Shown here: positions 45,854 to 54,461 of the stretch, piece after piece
Layout: every line of letters starts with the position of its first letter
How positions within the stretch are numbered: the stretch's first letter is position 1
From: Myxococcaceae bacterium
Lineage (GTDB): Bacteria; Myxococcota; Myxococcia; Myxococcales; Myxococcaceae
Length of the DNA stretch: 64,000 nt
Reading direction: 5' to 3'
NCBI GenBank assembly: GCA_019694595.1
Contig: JAIBBQ010000004.1
Location: forward strand, 1 to 64,000
Position numbers and translations under genes: made by a program
Notes under the pieces: model-generated
Seen by the model: only the letters and a program-made list of their open reading frames with translations
Database searches by the model: none
Told to the model about the DNA's origin: nothing

Positions 45854-46630
45854 ATGGTCTCCACGAAGCGCACGCCGAAGGCGGGCATGGACACGTTCAT
45901 CCGCAGCGTCGAGCTGCTGCGCGACAAGGTGCCCGACTTCGAGCGCTACCCGTTCAACATCCCAGCCGTCCGCCACCTCTCCACACTGCAGCTCCACCCG
46001 AAAGTCACCTTCCTCGTCGGCGAAAACGGCAGCGGCAAGTCGACGCTCATCGAGGCCATCGCCGTGGCCGCCGGCTTCAATGCCGAAGGCGGAAGTCGAA
46101 ACTTCAACTTTGCTACTCGGCGCTCAGAGTCGGAACTCCATCAATGCCTTCGAATGGTTCGCGGCGTTCGGCGCCCACGCACTGGCTACTTCCTTCGCGC
46201 CGAGTCCTTCTTCAACGTCGCTTCCGAGATCGAGAAAAACTCGGACGCAATGGCCGGACACGGCGGGGTTCATCACCACGAGATGTCCCATGGAGAGGCC
46301 TTCCTGGCGCTGGTTCAACACCGGTTCTGGGCGAAGGGGCTCTACATGCTCGACGAACCCGAAGCAGCGCTCTCTCCTCAGCGGCAGCTCGCTCTTCTCA
46401 AAATGGTGCACGACCTGGTTCAACAGGACTGCCAGTTCGTCATCTCAACGCACTCGCCTCTGCTGCTCGCCTTTCCTCAGGCCAAGATTCTTCACCTGTC
46501 CGAGAAGGGAATGGTTGAGGTTCAGTACGAGGACACCGAGCACTTCGCGCTCACGAGGGACTTCCTGCTTAATCGAGAGGGCTACCTGAAGCGGCTCTTC
46601 GCGCCTGACCATCAACCAGCAGAAGGATGA
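45854..46630 (+). CDS. AAA/ABC-type ATPase, COG3910-like
   Basis: A 258-residue predicted ATPase. Walker A is GENGSGKST (residues 56-64), followed by FNAEGGSRNFNF and YFLRAESFFNVASEIE. The signature-like MSHGEAF precedes Walker B YMLDEPEAALSPQ (Asp167, Glu168) and the H-loop STHSPLLL. This is the standalone RecF/SMC-like ATPase family, whose members often sit in defence or mobile islands, but whose function is unknown. Compared with the remembered pattern, about ten residues are missing after EIEKNS. It lies after the anomalous spacer and converges on the immunity-like gene with no gap. Confidence 0.88.
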   Translation: MVSTKRTPKAGMDTFIRSVELLRDKVPDFERYPFNIPAVRHLSTLQLHPKVTFLVGENGSGKSTLIEAIAVAAGFNAEGGSRNFNFATRRSESELHQCLRMVRGVRRPRTGYFLRAESFFNVASEIEKNSDAMAGHGGVHHHEMSHGEAFLALVQHRFWAKGLYMLDEPEAALSPQRQLALLKMVHDLVQQDCQFVISTHSPLLLAFPQAKILHLSEKGMVEVQYEDTEHFALTRDFLLNREGYLKRLFAPDHQPAEG

Positions 46631-46984
46631 CTACTCGAACTTTGGCAGAGGGTCGGAGCTCAACCCGTTCTTGTGATCGAAGTAGCGACGCACCAGCGCC
46701 ATCGCGTTCATCAGCGAATCGACCTCATTGGTTCCGATGATCGTGCGGACTCCCGGAAACAGCCCTTCGACTTCCAGTGGACAGTAGTAGCCCTCTTCGA
46801 AGGCACGGGGTGTTCCTACCTTCACCTCGAAGCTTCCCCGGGCCCCATTCCTGTCACGAAACTCAAGCCGCCCGGCAGCGACCGGATCGGTAATCGCTTC
46901 AACCTTCGGCCTCCAGTCCGACATCCGATCGATCCTCCAACTGAACGCACGGGTCAGTGCGTCGATGAGAAAATCGCGTAGCAC
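46631..46984 (-). CDS. immunity-like protein, DUF6968-like
   Basis: A 117-residue protein with no signal peptide, so cytoplasmic. The core SFEVKVGTPRAFEEGYYCPL followed by VRTIIGTNEVDSLMNAMALV matches my recollection of the DUF6968 fold, common among small genes beside polymorphic toxins; this is unverified. Its start overlaps the end of the displaced Rhs tip by 31 bases, the standard toxin-immunity arrangement. I infer that it neutralises that tip. Its stop abuts the convergent ATPase gene. Confidence 0.68.
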   Translation of the reverse strand: MLRDFLIDALTRAFSWRIDRMSDWRPKVEAITDPVAAGRLEFRDRNGARGSFEVKVGTPRAFEEGYYCPLEVEGLFPGVRTIIGTNEVDSLMNAMALVRRYFDHKNGLSSDPLPKFE

Positions 46985-47526
46985 GCGTTAACGCAGCGCT
47001 GCTCCGACTCGTAGATGGACGACCAAGAGAGTTGTTTCGCCCATGGATCTGTCAGCCTGCGACACACGTCCTCACGCATGTTCTCAGTGCCAGCGCAGGC
47101 GTTCAGACAATCGTTGAGGTTGGGCGGCTTCCGTCTGCCGCCGCACATTGCAGGTTCCCGTGAAGGCCCGGGCGTGTACCTGGGAGTGTCATCGCCCCCG
47201 AGGGGAGAGGGCCACAACAGGCCAATCACGCCACCAGCAGCCCCAACGCCTCTCAGGATGCCACTGCCAAGCCCCCCACCGACGTCCTTGCCGAGCTCAG
47301 CCAAAGCTCGTTCTGCAGCATCAATCACGGCGCCGCTTGGATACCGACCGTCACGGTCAATTCGGTTGATCGGATCGTTGCTCGCATAGGCGTACGGCAA
47401 CGTTTGCCGCCCCAACTCCGCCATGCCCGCGACGTACGCAGGCTTCTGCAGCATGGGTTCTGGGGAGAGGTACCTTCCGGTGGAGGGGTCGTAGAAGCGG
47501 TTCCAGTTCTCGTGGCTAGTCGCCTG
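46954..47526 (-). pseudogene. displaced (orphan) Rhs C-terminal tip
   Basis: This open frame of 190 codons begins after an in-frame TAG (47529-47527) and immediately enters Rhs core sequence, HENWNRFYDPSTGRYLSPEP. It continues through PYAYASNDPINRIDRDG, the end of the Rhs shell, into a unique tail of about 125 residues with six cysteines (NDCLNACAGTENMREDVCRR). It has no Rhs N-terminus. The only good internal start is ATG at 47454. It is a stored toxin tip rather than a full gene, related to the parent at 48755-48784 by an exact 30-base repeat. The immunity-like gene follows. The toxin activity is not recognisable. Confidence 0.8.
47486..47515. repeat. 30-bp direct repeat, orphan-tip copy
   Basis: Identical over all 30 bases to 48755-48784 inside the parent Rhs gene, in the same orientation and reading frame (it encodes HENWNRFYDP). 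Similarity to the parent ceases immediately upstream, marking the junction where the tip could be joined to the parent by homologous recombination. Confidence 0.9.
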
Positions 47527-48304
47527 CTACAACCTCATGCGGCAGAACCTCCTGAATCCCCTCCAGCACCTCCTGGACCGAACATTCCGGCCCGACTCCT
47601 CCGCGAGTCGCAACGGGGGCTGGAGGCACCGGAGCAAAGAGCGAGGGGCCATCTGGAACGGGTTGCGCGTGCACTACACTCTCGCGGCAACGCAGGACTA
47701 GAGCGACCAGCGGCTCTGTGCACTGCATCGCGTCACGTCCCATGCTGCGAAGGTCAGCGACACTTCGGGCAATCACCGAATCAAGGGTTCGCGTGCGAGC
47801 TGAGCTGGCGCGAGCTGGTTGAGCTCGCGCGGAGCAGATGGTCGCAGATCGCCCCGCAACGATAGCTGTCACTCTTCGATCCCCCGAGGGGGAACCAGGG
47901 GCCGCGCCACGCCAAACGACAGAGCAGTCGAGGAGTTCGGGTGTCTGTTGTGCAGACAAGTGCCCTATCCCGCGGACGATAACCAGTTGCCCAACGGACG
48001 CAAGTCGGTTGCCTGCCGCCTCGGGCTCGCCCTCAGCGCGCAATGTCAGTCGGCATCGCACGGCAATCGGGGGCGATGTCGTGCCCAAGTCCAATTGCTT
48101 GGCGGCAACATCAGCTGCCACGACGACTCCCACCACATCGATAGGCTTCTCGCGATGCAACCGATCGGCTCGGCTCTTCCCGTTGACCTGTAATCGAAGA
48201 AACTCGGAGGCAGAAACTGGTGCTGTGGAGACTTGGGCCAACGACTGGGTCGCACACCCTAAGACTGAAAGGAGCAGCACCGCAGAAACTGCCATGGATT
48301 TCAT
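47516..48304 (-). CDS. OB-fold-like lipoprotein coupled to the Rhs gene
   Basis: A 262-residue lipoprotein: signal peptide with lipobox SVLGC (acylated cysteine residue 17). It then has a segment resembling tRNA_anti-like OB-folds (PIDVVGVVVAADVAAKQLDL, ASVGQLVIVRGIGHL). The C-terminal 110 residues are Arg/Ala/Pro-rich and poorly structured. Its ATG overlaps the Rhs stop (ATGA), so it is made with the Rhs protein and is the natural candidate for its immunity or chaperone partner, acting in the periplasm. The stop lies inside the start of the orphan tip, so its C-terminus may have been altered when that tip arrived. Confidence 0.75.
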   Translation of the reverse strand: MKSMAVSAVLLLSVLGCATQSLAQVSTAPVSASEFLRLQVNGKSRADRLHREKPIDVVGVVVAADVAAKQLDLGTTSPPIAVRCRLTLRAEGEPEAAGNRLASVGQLVIVRGIGHLSAQQTPELLDCSVVWRGAAPGSPSGDRRVTAIVAGRSATICSARAQPARASSARTRTLDSVIARSVADLRSMGRDAMQCTEPLVALVLRCRESVVHAQPVPDGPSLFAPVPPAPVATRGGVGPECSVQEVLEGIQEVLPHEVVAGD

Positions 48305-51300
48305 ATGCCCACGCCCGTCTTGCCAAGGTCACATTTGTCGACGCATCGAATTCGGTAATACTTGATCGTCGGCGAATGCGGGTCGACGCAGGTAAGCCCA
48401 CGCTTGTCCACGTCCTTGCACTGAAGAACTAGGCAGGCATAAATCTCGGCGATACCGCTAGGGCAGTCACTCGCCGGCACCAAACCCGAACTACATTCCT
48501 TGACGATCGAGCCCGGAGCGAGCCCAGTAGCGTCTGTTTCGTTGACTGGATTATTCCGAGCGTACGCGTACGGTAACAAGGGCATGATCGAGGCGAGCTG
48601 AGGAGGCTGCGATCGCCGGTCCGGAAATTCAGGTAGATCTAGCAGCCGAACAGGCGGGCCGCTCTTGAGCCTCCTCAACGCCCCATCGAGAATCGCGGCT
48701 ACAGAAGGACCTTGTAGCAGCATGGGCTCAGGAGAGAGGTACCGGCCTGTCTGAGGGTCGTAGAAGCGGTTCCAGTTCTCGTGGAGCCCGGTCTCCTCGT
48801 CGAAGTATTGACCCGGAAAACGGACAGGAGGCCACCATGGGGTGGCGCCGGCCTCATACCGCTGAAACTGGTATCCCGACATTGCGACGCCCCAGTGGGT
48901 CGCAGCAACGTTGCCGCAAAACAGGCCGGCAATCTGCTCATGAGTCGAGTTGCTGACCCAGCTCACGCCAAAGCTCGATGCGACCGGATACCACGGGGTC
49001 CACAACGCCCTGAGGCCAGAGGTGCTGCTGTTGTAGAGGGGCGAGACTTGGGTTCCGGGGAACGCACCGGTGTAGATGGCGGCGCCATCGAAGTTGCCAG
49101 CTCCCGGACACTTCGGGTCGGTATCCAGCGATGAGAGATTGACCCGGACACTCATGTTCAAGCCCACCTTGGCGGGCGTGAGTTCGACGAGAGAGAAGTT
49201 CTGGTTGTTCGCGTACGGGTGACCCGTCTGGGTCCAGAACTCCACGCGATTCACGTTCCCAAGCGGGTCGTACTCGCCCGTGCCGGTCAGGCGACCAACT
49301 CCGTCGATCGCGACAAGCGGCTTCGGGAGATAGTCGTTCACGAGAAACACGAGACCACAGGGTTGTGACACGTCATTGCGGGTGCAGGTGGTCGAGTAGG
49401 CGTCATTCGTCCTCGCCCAGGACGTGTTCGTGGTGCTCTTCCAAACGGCGACGGCCTTGCCATCGAGCCAGATGTACTCGTCGATCGTGTAGCCCGTCGC
49501 AGTCGACAAGGAGCGGTTGCCGCGGTCCTCGAGGAGCTGATGACCTTGGTCGTAATAGTACTCATCGCTCACCGCTCCGTAGGCAGCGCTGTAGGCCTTC
49601 TGCCGGCGGCGGCTCCGAGCGTCATAGTAGTACTGGTAGCTGACCCCGTTCACGTTCACATTTCGGTACACAGAGTCCGAACCCGGGGTCGTGGTCAGGT
49701 AGCCGAACGACTGGGAGAAGCTCGGTGCCGATGTCGAGTCAACCAGGCCCTTCTTCGTCAAGGTCCGACCGTCGGTGTCGTAGGTGAATGTCGCTCCAAC
49801 TGTCTGAGGCAGGGCGCCCGAAGTCCAACTTGCGAGCTGATCCTGGCGCGGCGCACCGAGATACGAGGCGAAATATCCAGCGCCCCAAGGGTCTACGTAA
49901 CGTGTCGTCCGGTTGCTCCGGGCATCGAAGACGAAGTAGTTCGAGTAGCCCCAGCCACCGCTCGTGGAGAAATTGTCGACGTACCCCGAGACGTTTCTCT
50001 GGACTCCGTCGTAGCCCGGATACTGGGCCGCGAATGCCCCGATTCCGTACTCCTCAATCTGTGGCGTCCCGAAGTTCTTTATCGTGGTGCTCGTCTGACC
50101 CACGAGTTCGCCCTTCCAGAGATAGGTGCGCTTGTAGATGTCGCCGCTGCCAGAGGAGGTGGAAACGAATAGCGATCCAGGCCGGCCGGTAAAGTCGTGG
50201 CCTGCGGTTGGAGTTTGGCCGAGCCCGTATTCGACCTTCAGATTTCCGCTCTGAATCAGTGGTTGGTACGAGCGAAGTCCTCCGTACGGTTCCCAAGTCG
50301 CGTTTGACAAGAGAGTGACGGTCCCCAGTCCCCACGTCGTCGAAGTGACTGATGCGACTCGATCGCGAAGGCTGAGATCGCTGTTGTACACGTACGAAAC
50401 GAGCCTCCCGTGTGGATACTTCACTGAACTGAGGTTGCCGTTTCCGGTGTACGTGAAGCTTGTCACTGTAGGACTTTCTGCCCCCGCGATACATGCCGTC
50501 TCGCCCCTGGTCGTGGCGTCGAGGACGACATTCCCCACATGATCGTAGGCAAAGTAGTGAGCTCCGATGGCATCGCTTTCGCTGACCAGCCGTCCCTTTT
50601 GGTTGAGGTCGGTTGGTGCACCGCAGCTGGACGGGAAAGCGATTGCCGGCGATACGACGGCATCCCAAGTCTTTGAAACCACCGTTGTGACCACCGAGCC
50701 GTTGACGCTGTCCTGACGCAGCATTCGTCCCAACTGGTCATAGCTGTACTCCCAACGCGTATTGGCCAGAGTCATCTCGGGAGTCCTGCGAGTGATAACA
50801 TTGCCCATCGCATCGTATTGGTACTCGAAGCTTCCTCGATTCGCGCCGGAACCCGAGTTTGACGCAGTCACAAGGACGACATTGCCGAAGTCGTCGGTGG
50901 AGTAGTCGATGGGTGAACTGTCACAACTGGACAATGCACCAGGGGTCGCGCACGTTGCCGTCGTTGCACAGCCACTGCTGACCCGGGTCACGTTTCCGTT
51001 GGAGTCGTGATCAAGGCAGCTTCGAATCGCGTTGGACGTCGTCAGAGTGGGGAAGTCGTCGAGAACGGCAAGGCGATTTGCTCCGTCCCACTGCATCTGG
51101 GCGCATAGCGGCGACAGGTTACCGCTGCCATCGAGGCAAAAGGGAGGAGAGGACGCGAACGACTTTCCGAGGGCGCGGAGGTTGTCGGTGGCGTCGAAGC
51201 CGCGTGGAATCGAGTAGGCGAACCCACTGCCTCCGTCGCCGAATGCATCCCACGTCGGACGTCGCTCAGAATCCACGGCATGCCACATCAGTCGCCGTGC

Positions 51301-53670
51301 TCCGTCCGCTGCAGTCTCGAACGACTCGGACCTCACCGTCCCGTCAGGCCAGTAGGAGTAGCGAATTCCTTCCTTCCATACCGTACCAAGTGCATCAGCC
51401 GACCGAGCCTTCCAAGCGACAAGCTTCGACAGAGGCGCAGATGTCGAACAAGTCCCGATCGCTGGCCCTGCGCCGCCGGTGACGCCTCGATTGCAGTACG
51501 ACTCAAAATTGCCGTCCGGGAGTTGGACCGAGCGAAGAAATGGCCCGTCATACGTGTAGTTCCAGACCAGGGTAGGAAATGTTGCTTTTGCGACCGTGCG
51601 CTGGGTGACCTGATGAGGCCCCGCGTTGTATTGGAGAGTCGTGGTCGTTCCGTTGGCGTCGACAATGGTCGTCGGGTCGCCCAAGTCATTATATGCAGTG
51701 TATTGGGTTGTCAGTGCCGCGACTGGCGGCGGAGACGAAGAGCAACCACCAGGGAAGCGCGAAATCGTCGCGATCCGGTTCGCTTTCTGGTCCAGTCCAC
51801 TGCCGTGGTACGTGATCTCAGTCACCGGGTAGCTTGCTCCGATGCACTGGCTGCCATTGGACTCGCAAGGGCCCTCGATTCGAACGACGCGCCCGAGTGG
51901 GTCGTTCGTGTAGGGGGCCGTGCAGACGCGAGCAATCTTGTAGAAGGTGCTGATCCTCTTTGGGACGATCGCGCCGCCAAAAATCCTGGTGAATCCGAGC
52001 TTTTCCGACTGGATGAGTTGGCCGTTCGTGTTGTCGTAAGTGTAGGTGTCGACGGAAGCATCCGGAGCAAGGAGTGAGCGGCGGGATACGGATGCAACGT
52101 GTTGGACGCCAAAGTTGTCGTACACGTAGCTGATGTCCTCGCGCTCGATCGCATCGACCCCGGCATCCGTGGTTGCGCCACGCATCCTCGCCCGTGTCTC
52201 CCAAGTTTCGACGCTCTGACCTGCTGGAATCGAAAAATAGCGATCGAACAGGTCGTAGTACCCGCGACGGTTCCGCACGCCTCTCTGATACTTTCGCGTA
52301 GACGTAGAAGTGCAGACGAAGTCTGACCTGTCGTTCGCGGCCCAAATCAGCTCTTTGACTCCGGGGCTGCACGAGTTGGCGACGCTGCATCCAAACTGTT
52401 GAAAGTAGGGTTCGCTGCCATGTGCGCTCTGGAACTTTGCTGAAATGAACGCGGTCTTCACAGAGAAGTTTGTGGCTCCCGGTTGCCCGTCGCCTCTCCC
52501 TGCATACATGTCTGTGCTCGTCGTCGAGTAAGGGGCGGGTTGGTTCGTTTCTTTGCTGCACTGAGGGACGGCGGGAACAATGGGATCGTCGTCGGCAATT
52601 TGCAGATACTCGGTCGTTCCCTGTGTGGCCGTTGCGGTTGGACCGGAGCTCGACAGCGGGTAAGTGGTCGTTTCGCTACCTCGCACCACCTGAAACTGGT
52701 TGGTTGCATATGAGTATGTCTCGGTTTCGAGTCCACCGACCGAACTGACGATCTTTCCAGTCCGTTCAACGCCAGAACTCGAGTCGTAGGTGTACACAAC
52801 CAGGGTGCGACTCCCACCGGTCCACTGTAAATCCACCTGCCGAAGAACGCAGGCCTGCGAAACGAGCGCACCGGCGAAGGTTGCTAGAGTCGCATAACTG
52901 AACTTCAGCCAGGTGCCGCCCTGCAACGTCACCTTGTCGATGTAGGGTGCTCCGTTCGCAGCACTTCCTGGGCAGTTGGCGCCTCCCGGCATCGTTGGGG
53001 TTGCGTACGAAACGTCAAAGCGCTTCTCGCCGTTGGCGTTGTAGGCGGAGGTCAGAAAGTACGCGGGGGAGGCAAGTGCTGCCCCCGCGATGTTGTTGGT
53101 GATCTGCGCTGTGTAGACCCGCCTGACGCTCTTGTCGTCGATCCACTCGTAGCCGCTCCCGGTCCACTTGATGCGATCGGGGATTGACGGCGAATCGACG
53201 TGGCGGGCTACCCACGTGTTGGGTGCAGTCGAAGCCAGAGAGAAATCGACGACAGAGGCGCCGGGCGCCAGCACCAGGAGCGACCCACCGGAGCCGTATT
53301 GGTTGTTTCCCCGGACGAAGGAAAAGAAGTTGTGGGTCCAGAAGGTCCCTTGGTCGGTTCTTCCAAATGGCGTGGCCAGGTCGTCAACGATTCCGTTCTG
53401 CCCCATCGTTGCGGCCTGCGATTGATAGGTGCGGAAAAACTCAACGGTGCCCGTGGCCGTGTTGATGTCGGCTTCCTTCGTTCTGTGGAAGACCGCTCGA
53501 GTCAGAAGATTGACCGGGTCCCCCGCGACGAAACCGCCGCAGCACTTGAAGTCGTTGCACCGGGGTGGGTTCTGGTTGCCCGGACAGACGGGCTGTGAGG
53601 CCTCAACGAAGGGTGCGAGGCACAGAGTCCCCACGAGCGCTGCCGCGAACCCGCTACGAATCGTTGTCAT
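48301..53670 (-). CDS. Rhs/YD-repeat polymorphic toxin-like protein with Sec signal
   Basis: A 1789-residue protein. A signal peptide (SGFAAALVGTLCLAPFVEA) is followed by a Cys-rich patch and the Rhs-type N-domain (AGDPVNLLTRAVFHRT, TVEFFRTYQSQ). Long YD-repeat shell sequence follows (YDQLGRML, YDAMGNVI, YDHVGNVV, YDPLGNVN), then the shell end HENWNRFYDPQTGRYLSPEP and PYAYARNNPVNETDATGL. The variable tip of about 70 residues has seven cysteines. Such shells encapsulate a cleaved C-terminal toxin. The Sec signal rather than a PAAR domain means export through the general pathway, not T6SS. Both neighbours overlap it by four bases. Confidence 0.92.
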   Translation of the reverse strand: MTTIRSGFAAALVGTLCLAPFVEASQPVCPGNQNPPRCNDFKCCGGFVAGDPVNLLTRAVFHRTKEADINTATGTVEFFRTYQSQAATMGQNGIVDDLATPFGRTDQGTFWTHNFFSFVRGNNQYGSGGSLLVLAPGASVVDFSLASTAPNTWVARHVDSPSIPDRIKWTGSGYEWIDDKSVRRVYTAQITNNIAGAALASPAYFLTSAYNANGEKRFDVSYATPTMPGGANCPGSAANGAPYIDKVTLQGGTWLKFSYATLATFAGALVSQACVLRQVDLQWTGGSRTLVVYTYDSSSGVERTGKIVSSVGGLETETYSYATNQFQVVRGSETTTYPLSSSGPTATATQGTTEYLQIADDDPIVPAVPQCSKETNQPAPYSTTSTDMYAGRGDGQPGATNFSVKTAFISAKFQSAHGSEPYFQQFGCSVANSCSPGVKELIWAANDRSDFVCTSTSTRKYQRGVRNRRGYYDLFDRYFSIPAGQSVETWETRARMRGATTDAGVDAIEREDISYVYDNFGVQHVASVSRRSLLAPDASVDTYTYDNTNGQLIQSEKLGFTRIFGGAIVPKRISTFYKIARVCTAPYTNDPLGRVVRIEGPCESNGSQCIGASYPVTEITYHGSGLDQKANRIATISRFPGGCSSSPPPVAALTTQYTAYNDLGDPTTIVDANGTTTTLQYNAGPHQVTQRTVAKATFPTLVWNYTYDGPFLRSVQLPDGNFESYCNRGVTGGAGPAIGTCSTSAPLSKLVAWKARSADALGTVWKEGIRYSYWPDGTVRSESFETAADGARRLMWHAVDSERRPTWDAFGDGGSGFAYSIPRGFDATDNLRALGKSFASSPPFCLDGSGNLSPLCAQMQWDGANRLAVLDDFPTLTTSNAIRSCLDHDSNGNVTRVSSGCATTATCATPGALSSCDSSPIDYSTDDFGNVVLVTASNSGSGANRGSFEYQYDAMGNVITRRTPEMTLANTRWEYSYDQLGRMLRQDSVNGSVVTTVVSKTWDAVVSPAIAFPSSCGAPTDLNQKGRLVSESDAIGAHYFAYDHVGNVVLDATTRGETACIAGAESPTVTSFTYTGNGNLSSVKYPHGRLVSYVYNSDLSLRDRVASVTSTTWGLGTVTLLSNATWEPYGGLRSYQPLIQSGNLKVEYGLGQTPTAGHDFTGRPGSLFVSTSSGSGDIYKRTYLWKGELVGQTSTTIKNFGTPQIEEYGIGAFAAQYPGYDGVQRNVSGYVDNFSTSGGWGYSNYFVFDARSNRTTRYVDPWGAGYFASYLGAPRQDQLASWTSGALPQTVGATFTYDTDGRTLTKKGLVDSTSAPSFSQSFGYLTTTPGSDSVYRNVNVNGVSYQYYYDARSRRRQKAYSAAYGAVSDEYYYDQGHQLLEDRGNRSLSTATGYTIDEYIWLDGKAVAVWKSTTNTSWARTNDAYSTTCTRNDVSQPCGLVFLVNDYLPKPLVAIDGVGRLTGTGEYDPLGNVNRVEFWTQTGHPYANNQNFSLVELTPAKVGLNMSVRVNLSSLDTDPKCPGAGNFDGAAIYTGAFPGTQVSPLYNSSTSGLRALWTPWYPVASSFGVSWVSNSTHEQIAGLFCGNVAATHWGVAMSGYQFQRYEAGATPWWPPVRFPGQYFDEETGLHENWNRFYDPQTGRYLSPEPMLLQGPSVAAILDGALRRLKSGPPVRLLDLPEFPDRRSQPPQLASIMPLLPYAYARNNPVNETDATGLAPGSIVKECSSGLVPASDCPSGIAEIYACLVLQCKDVDKRGLTCVDPHSPTIKYYRIRCVDKCDLGKTGVGI
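48755..48784. repeat. 30-bp direct repeat, parent Rhs copy
   Basis: Exact partner of 47486-47515. Recombination between the two would delete the 1269-base interval between them, removing the current tip and the OB-fold-like lipoprotein and fusing the Rhs shell in frame to the orphan tip. Confidence 0.9.
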
Positions 53671-54461
53671 TGGAAGCTCACCAGTTTCTTGGGCGCCTTT
53701 CCGGGCGCCGTGATTACAAAGAGTCCAGTCTTGCCTTGAACCAAGATTTCCCCTGATGGGGTTCGCCGAATGTGGGAGTCGCCGACGGGCTCCGTGACCT
53801 CGCCCCACTCGACGTCTCCACGTTTCGTGGGCACGACGATCTTGAGTTTGGCGTAGTCGCGACGAACCACCGCCCGCCCAGCCGACGCTTCGGTGAACGA
53901 GTCGAGAGCAGCGTCTGGAGCCGTCAGGTCAGACTCAACGGCGGGTGAAGACCCCACGTCGAGCTTTCCAACCCTGAAGTGGCCACGGCAGTCAGCATGG
54001 AGGAAGTAGAGATGCTCTCCCTGCCAAGAATAGGGGCCGAGGTGACAGCCGGGAGTCCCGGACAACCTGGTCGCTGGTCCGCCGTTCCAGGACACGCGCC
54101 AGACCTGAGACCAATCCATGACATGTTTCACTTCAACTGGTCGCTCTTGATGGTTGAAGTACACCGAGCCGTCCGGGGCAATGAAGGGGTGACGAATCAG
54201 CCCGCCGTCACTCACCAGTTCCCGAGCTTCGCCGCCGGGCGACCAGGCCAGGAGGTGGAGTCGATCTTCCGAAATCAGAGCGAACTTCTTGCCGTCGTCC
54301 GAAACCGCGACCTCATGCGCTCGGTGTCCGCCGAAGTCGGTGTGGCGTGACACCTCTTTCCCGAAGTCGTTGGTGACGACCCAGAGCTCAGGCGTACCCC
54401 AGGCGTAGTGATGAGCTGGCACTGCCGAAACGATGGCAGTCAGCAGGGCTTCCGCGACCAC
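53667..54461 (-). CDS. exported beta-propeller-like protein
   Basis: A 264-residue protein with a signal peptide (VAEALLTAIVSAVPAHHYA). Its repeated blades are of the TolB/WD40-like type: AVSDDGKKFALISEDRLHLL, FIAPDGSVYFNHQE, YSWQGEHLYFLHAD, RTPSGEILVQGKTGLF. The GTG start overlaps the stop of the upstream lipoprotein gene by one base, and its stop overlaps the Rhs ATG by four (ATGA). Propellers usually bind proteins or glycans, so a role in presenting or escorting the Rhs protein in the periplasm is likely but inferred. No catalytic residues are evident. Confidence 0.78.
   Translation of the reverse strand: MVAEALLTAIVSAVPAHHYAWGTPELWVVTNDFGKEVSRHTDFGGHRAHEVAVSDDGKKFALISEDRLHLLAWSPGGEARELVSDGGLIRHPFIAPDGSVYFNHQERPVEVKHVMDWSQVWRVSWNGGPATRLSGTPGCHLGPYSWQGEHLYFLHADCRGHFRVGKLDVGSSPAVESDLTAPDAALDSFTEASAGRAVVRRDYAKLKIVVPTKRGDVEWGEVTEPVGDSHIRRTPSGEILVQGKTGLFVITAPGKAPKKLVSFQ

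Follow-up and report, generated by a model that had tools for sequence, protein, structure and literature searches.

A probable silent Rhs tip cassette beside a full-length signal-peptide Rhs gene in a Myxococcaceae genome

The window analysed here comprises the first 64,000 nucleotides of contig JAIBBQ010000004.1 from a Myxococcaceae bacterium (assembly GCA_019694595.1; genome 7.28 Mb, 99% complete). Reading along its minus strand, a full-length Rhs/YD-repeat gene is followed by a gene for a lipobox protein, a C-terminal Rhs fragment and a small gene, P0003. The full-length gene (48301–53670) lies in a frame that is open to 53808, and its start is most likely the ATG at 53670, which would give the product a predicted Sec-type signal, MTTIRSGFAAALVGTLCLAPFVEAS. 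It contains both YD/RHS repeats and an Rhs core-associated domain, with matches to RHS_repeat (PF05593, E=6e-9), YD_repeat_2x / TIGR01643 (1e-8) and TIGR03696 (58 bits, 1e-15). Homologues at E<=1e-20 are present in 19 of 60 relatives, and a search of the genome returned a single locus of this Rhs type. The Rhs region (46000–54000) has a G+C content of 57–64%, compared with ~62–74% in the preceding 10 kb, which suggests horizontal acquisition. On the opposite strand an AAA/ABC-type ATPase gene (45854–46630; AAA_21, E=3e-17) ends right at the end of P0003.

The parent protein ends in a cysteine-rich tip (tip 1; 48304–48537, minus strand, from TDATGL to the C-terminus) that has no Pfam match and no homologue in the 95 other family genomes, apart from a doubtful 35% match in G014. 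Tip 1 is thus almost unique among the 96 genomes while the core that carries it is widespread, and it is followed by a small partner gene, an arrangement of variable tip and partner. The partner (47516–48304, minus strand) is predicted from its translation to be a lipobox protein (VLGC), and its start overlaps the Rhs stop codon as ATGA, so that the earlier description of a Sec-type parent coupled to a lipoprotein stands. It is presumed to be the partner, or immunity protein, of tip 1. Its only homologues are weak ones in G028 and G084, both 258-codon lipobox reading frames, and a role as a conserved Rhs partner was rejected because these two best homologues sit away from Rhs genes. Domain searches for function returned no match for the lipobox protein or for either tip.

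Beyond the lipobox gene lies the Rhs C-terminal fragment (46954–47514, minus strand; 186 codons plus stop), referred to below as the orphan. Its residues 1–56 match TIGR03696 at 36.5 bits (curated cutoff 32.5), and its frame carries an in-frame stop five codons before HENWNRF. There is neither a start codon nor an export signal at its head, and the first ATG (47454) is inside the core motif. Nothing between parent and orphan resembles the decaying remains of a second whole Rhs gene. Like an orphan rhs-CT/rhsI module, it joins the end of a core to a tip and has downstream a partner gene that co-occurs with that tip. The analysis supports the earlier claim of an orphan Rhs tip that shares the frame of the parent and is followed by a partner gene of its own. 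The base composition of the two tips gives no pointer to which of them is the newcomer.

Parent and orphan share an exact 30-mer, CCACGAGAACTGGAACCGCTTCTACGACCC, at 48755–48784 and 47486–47515 respectively. Both copies are on the minus strand and spaced by 1269 nt, or 423 codons, so they are read in the same frame. Translated, the 30-mer reads HENWNRFYDP, which is the conserved end of the Rhs core and falls within the TIGR03696 match of the parent. Alignment extends the repeat to 68 nt at 85% identity (48717–48784 and 47448–47515); all mismatches fall within the tip-side 38 nt, and similarity ends directly upstream of the orphan copy, where the lipoprotein stop codon occupies 47516–47518. The sequence-only reading was therefore accurate on orientation, frame and the abrupt upstream end of similarity, and the 30-mer, with two copies in the genome, is not a low-complexity or widely repeated sequence. 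That reading had also placed the start of the displaced tip at the repeat; the orphan does carry the exact repeat, but the true boundary appears to lie ~45 residues further on. Because TIGR03696 also scores the orphan and core-like sequence runs on, the 30-nt repeat is, on the profile evidence, mostly a conserved core-end motif of the carrier and not the tip boundary. In the orphan, core-like sequence continues ~45 residues past the repeat to PYAYASNDPINRIDRDG (DRDGR), and in the parent, after an insertion, to PYAYARNNPVNETDATG (DATGL), each the equivalent of DPxGL.

The last ~63 residues of the orphan form a five-cysteine domain (tip 2; 46960–47178, minus strand), which a seven-row profile (A1, the window's own sequence among the rows) matches 47 times in 30 of 145 genomes of the order; several of these matches were found independently by a single-sequence search. 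P0003 (46631–46924, minus strand) is presumed to be the immunity gene of tip 2. Its start is most likely the ATG at 46924 and not the GTG at 46984, since homologues begin at about that position (M-x-(D/N)WRPK), and from this ATG there is a gap of 29 nt after tip 2, as in relatives. At 32 of the 47 tip-2 loci, the window included, a same-strand P0003 homologue comes immediately after the tip-2 domain, the gap ranging from -24 to 50 nt. P0003 resembles DUF6968 (PF22302, E=1.3e-4), at 22.2 bits for P0003 and 24.9 bits for a homologue against a curated cutoff of 27 bits, and it is accordingly referred to only as DUF6968-like. The literature searched yielded no mention of DUF6968. No family in Pfam, NCBIfam or PDB meaningfully matches the tip-2 domain, solved structures gave no meaningful match to the profiles of P0003 or tip 2, and an AlphaFold prediction of P0003 alone was a poor model (pLDDT 61).

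Tip-2 carriers in relatives are mostly short reading frames, the majority of 90–230 codons, and a simple rule recognises a lipobox signal in 16 of 32 inspected carrier frames; these short carriers matched no NCBIfam family. In G096 the domain instead occupies the C-terminus of a full-length Rhs frame of 2063 codons, and a related-looking gene lies downstream of this carrier (L145, G096:C1:6355711-6355899). At G061:C1:7012003-7012535 and G062:C305:37782-38305 the cysteine domain and the DUF6968-like gene converge from opposite strands, which sets these two loci apart from the other pairs.

Orphan core-tip fragments are frequent among relatives, either adjoining full-length Rhs genes or apart from them. 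The repeats shared by main and orphan copies in their tandem arrays include 1089 bp at ~90% identity (G028), 451 bp at 91% (G022), 310 bp at 92% (G007), 259 bp at 82% (G008) and 102 bp at 81% (G005). Related tips also occur both orphaned and loaded: in G034 a 287-aa orphan and a 1771-aa full-length protein are 76% identical over 124 aa, and the tip of a 349-aa orphan in G028 is 51% identical to that of a 2035-aa full-length protein in G008. The G028 tandem array (L037/L038, G028:C1:5195500-5225000) contains two nearly full-length Rhs genes with 89% DNA identity over 5.9 kb, further core fragments of 0.9–1.1 kb at ~90%, and repeated non-core segments at 93–97%, and is a better place than the window to look for tip exchange. 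By reading, nine full-length Rhs proteins of relatives have a signal sequence at the N-terminus, and many of the downstream partners, again judged qualitatively, resemble lipoproteins, signal-peptide proteins or membrane proteins; a strict lipobox rule flags 4 of 45 downstream partners, including that in the window.

On these features the locus is of a known kind, a predicted silent rhs-CT/rhsI cassette beside a full-length Rhs gene. The reading we prefer, at a probability of roughly 0.8, is a main/orphan Rhs toxin locus in which a Sec-exported carrier bears tip 1 and is coupled to its lipoprotein, and a downstream untranslated tip-2 cassette serves as a reservoir. In the displaced cassette, tip 2 would be preceded by ~55 codons from the end of a core and followed by a DUF6968-like immunity gene. 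The cassette probably originated through insertion of another tip/partner cassette at the end of the core, or through addition of tip 2 together with a core remnant of its own. With neither a start nor an export signal at its head, tip 2 is probably silent in its present state, and the cassette would keep immunity to tip 2 while acting as a reservoir. By analogy with Salmonella LT2, tip 2 could be loaded onto the main gene in rare recombination events at the end of the core. We infer toxicity, immunity and loading by recombination at this locus; neither tip matches the enzymatic families searched, and the toxin and immunity roles are putative. Several observations argue for the main/orphan reading: the TIGR03696 score of the orphan, its lack of a start and signal together with the stop just upstream in its frame, the conservation of tip 2 and its partner as a pair, the frequency of orphan core-tip fragments among relatives, the presence of related tips both orphaned and loaded within the family, and the tip-2 domain on a full-length Rhs frame in G096. 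Against it count the sub-cutoff DUF6968 score of P0003, the absence of an enzymatic family match for either tip, and the exact identity of only 30 bp, compared with 522 bp at 95% in Salmonella. In E. coli, RecA-dependent exchange has its lower length limit near 30 bp of identity, so that homologous recombination would be rare and a regular switch unlikely, leaving occasional loading possible.

A rival reading takes the 30-bp repeat for the ready-made switch of the sequence-only reading, maintained or used so that cells regularly lose 1269 bp and thereby expose tip 2. The repeat is exact, in frame and restricted to two genome copies, and, judged from the coordinates, the shell would be joined in frame to tip 2 by the deletion, with the partner gene of tip 2 retained. 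How surprising the exact match is depends on the null that is chosen. Dinucleotide shuffles predict zero 30-mer matches, and chance was replaced as the null by a homologous-junction sample of 71 junctions from 41 of the 96 family genomes. Of 823 junction pairs that come from different genera and encode an identical decapeptide, 39 (4.7%) show no difference over 29 nt, although some of these identities may themselves reflect transfer, and a further 25% differ at one base. In a codon model using the sample frequencies, a second copy encoding the same peptide would match the exact sequence with probability 0.19, or 0.055 when averaged over sequences. The exact 29-mer is absent from the other 95 family genomes, and near-identical forms of the junction exist in relatives, for example with one mismatch in an Archangium MAG. 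Measured against homologous junctions the match is a 5–19% event, and therefore no special maintenance of the repeat is needed; most main-orphan repeats in relatives' arrays are also longer, at about 100–1000 bp. The exact repeat is thus weak evidence of recombination, is accounted for in large part by conservation of the protein together with codon bias, and is compatible with a recent shared origin of the two copies without requiring one. The deletion that would fuse the shell to tip 2 is possible in principle, since the frames agree, but the repeat as a ready-made, dedicated switch sequence is not supported, and we regard regular switching as improbable. More generally, conserved protein sequence and codon bias can together yield exact short repeats at toxin-tip junctions, and such repeats should be read with caution.

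The cassette could alternatively be dead, a remnant of an older Rhs gene or a failed insertion with no role beyond possibly immunity. Its lack of a start and export signal would be expected of such a remnant, and fragments of many lengths litter the genomes of relatives; against this, the frames of tip 2 and its partner are intact, the cysteines are kept, the spacing between the two genes matches that in relatives, and there is no other core remnant upstream. A dead remnant is on balance somewhat unlikely. It is also conceivable that, instead of toxin and immunity protein, the pair comprises a small exported protein with a structural or binding role, in the form of tip 2, and a helper encoded by the DUF6968-like gene, given that tip 2 is short, cysteine-rich and matches no toxin family, and that many relatives carry the domain as a short lipobox reading frame. 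This is unlikely, because the domain occupies precisely the variable-tip position in two Rhs carriers and has a conserved partner gene running in the same direction, as is usual for polymorphic toxins. Within the main/orphan reading, the new element would be this small cysteine-rich tip module with its DUF6968-like partner, apparently common to Rhs proteins and short lipoproteins. More tentatively, and at somewhat less than even odds, the pair may be a so far undescribed toxin/immunity module of myxobacteria with two vehicles between which it moves, large Sec-exported Rhs carriers and short lipoproteins, the latter of which could pass between cells by outer membrane exchange. As such it is a compact, testable candidate toxin family linking the two types of carrier.

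Tip-2 relatives resemble the SitA/SitI lipoprotein toxins (PMC5562445, PMC8546572) in that they are often found on lipobox proteins with an adjacent partner, as in sitAI pairs. They differ in that the short carriers have no room for the ~375-aa escort domain, and the orphan in the window has neither a lipobox-bearing type II signal sequence nor a family-specific escort domain of that length. The parent is similar to Rhs4 and Rhs5 of Myxococcus xanthus (PMC10433427), which are large surface-type Rhs proteins with signal sequences in a myxobacterium; those are ~4000 aa, encoded on Mx-alpha units and have demonstrated roles in kin discrimination, whereas any activity of the present locus is putative. 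Since signal-peptide Rhs proteins are documented in M. xanthus by that review and nine full-length Rhs proteins of relatives carry such signals, the suggestion that a Sec-exported Rhs with a lipoprotein partner is distinct carries little weight, and it is weakened further by lipoprotein- or membrane-type partners appearing common in the family and by the frequency of orphan arrays. The rhs-main/rhs-CT-orphan locus of Salmonella Typhimurium LT2 shares the layout, and loading recombination that removes the main immunity gene is likewise predicted there. Koskiniemi et al. (PMC3967940) give evidence for loading in evolved Salmonella through a repeat of 522 bp at 95% identity, compared with 30 bp exact within 68 bp at 85% here, and the Salmonella orphan rhs-CT fragments also have no start or export signal. 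Poole et al. (PMC3150448) described orphan modules, placed their proposed loading in CDI/Rhs loci at sequences conserved at the tip boundary, and noted that the main immunity gene is lost in the process. The enterobacterial orphan rhs-CT/rhsI modules of Dickeya dadantii 3937 and Yersinia (PMC3150448) share with this locus a displaced core-tip fragment and small downstream gene after a full-length rhs gene, and tip families that are orphaned in some genomes and loaded in others. They differ in that the carrier here is myxobacterial and of the large signal-peptide kind, and the toxin and immunity functions are putative. Orphan Rhs cassettes have been studied best in enterobacteria, and the present findings add signal-peptide Rhs loci across a myxobacterial family to their range.
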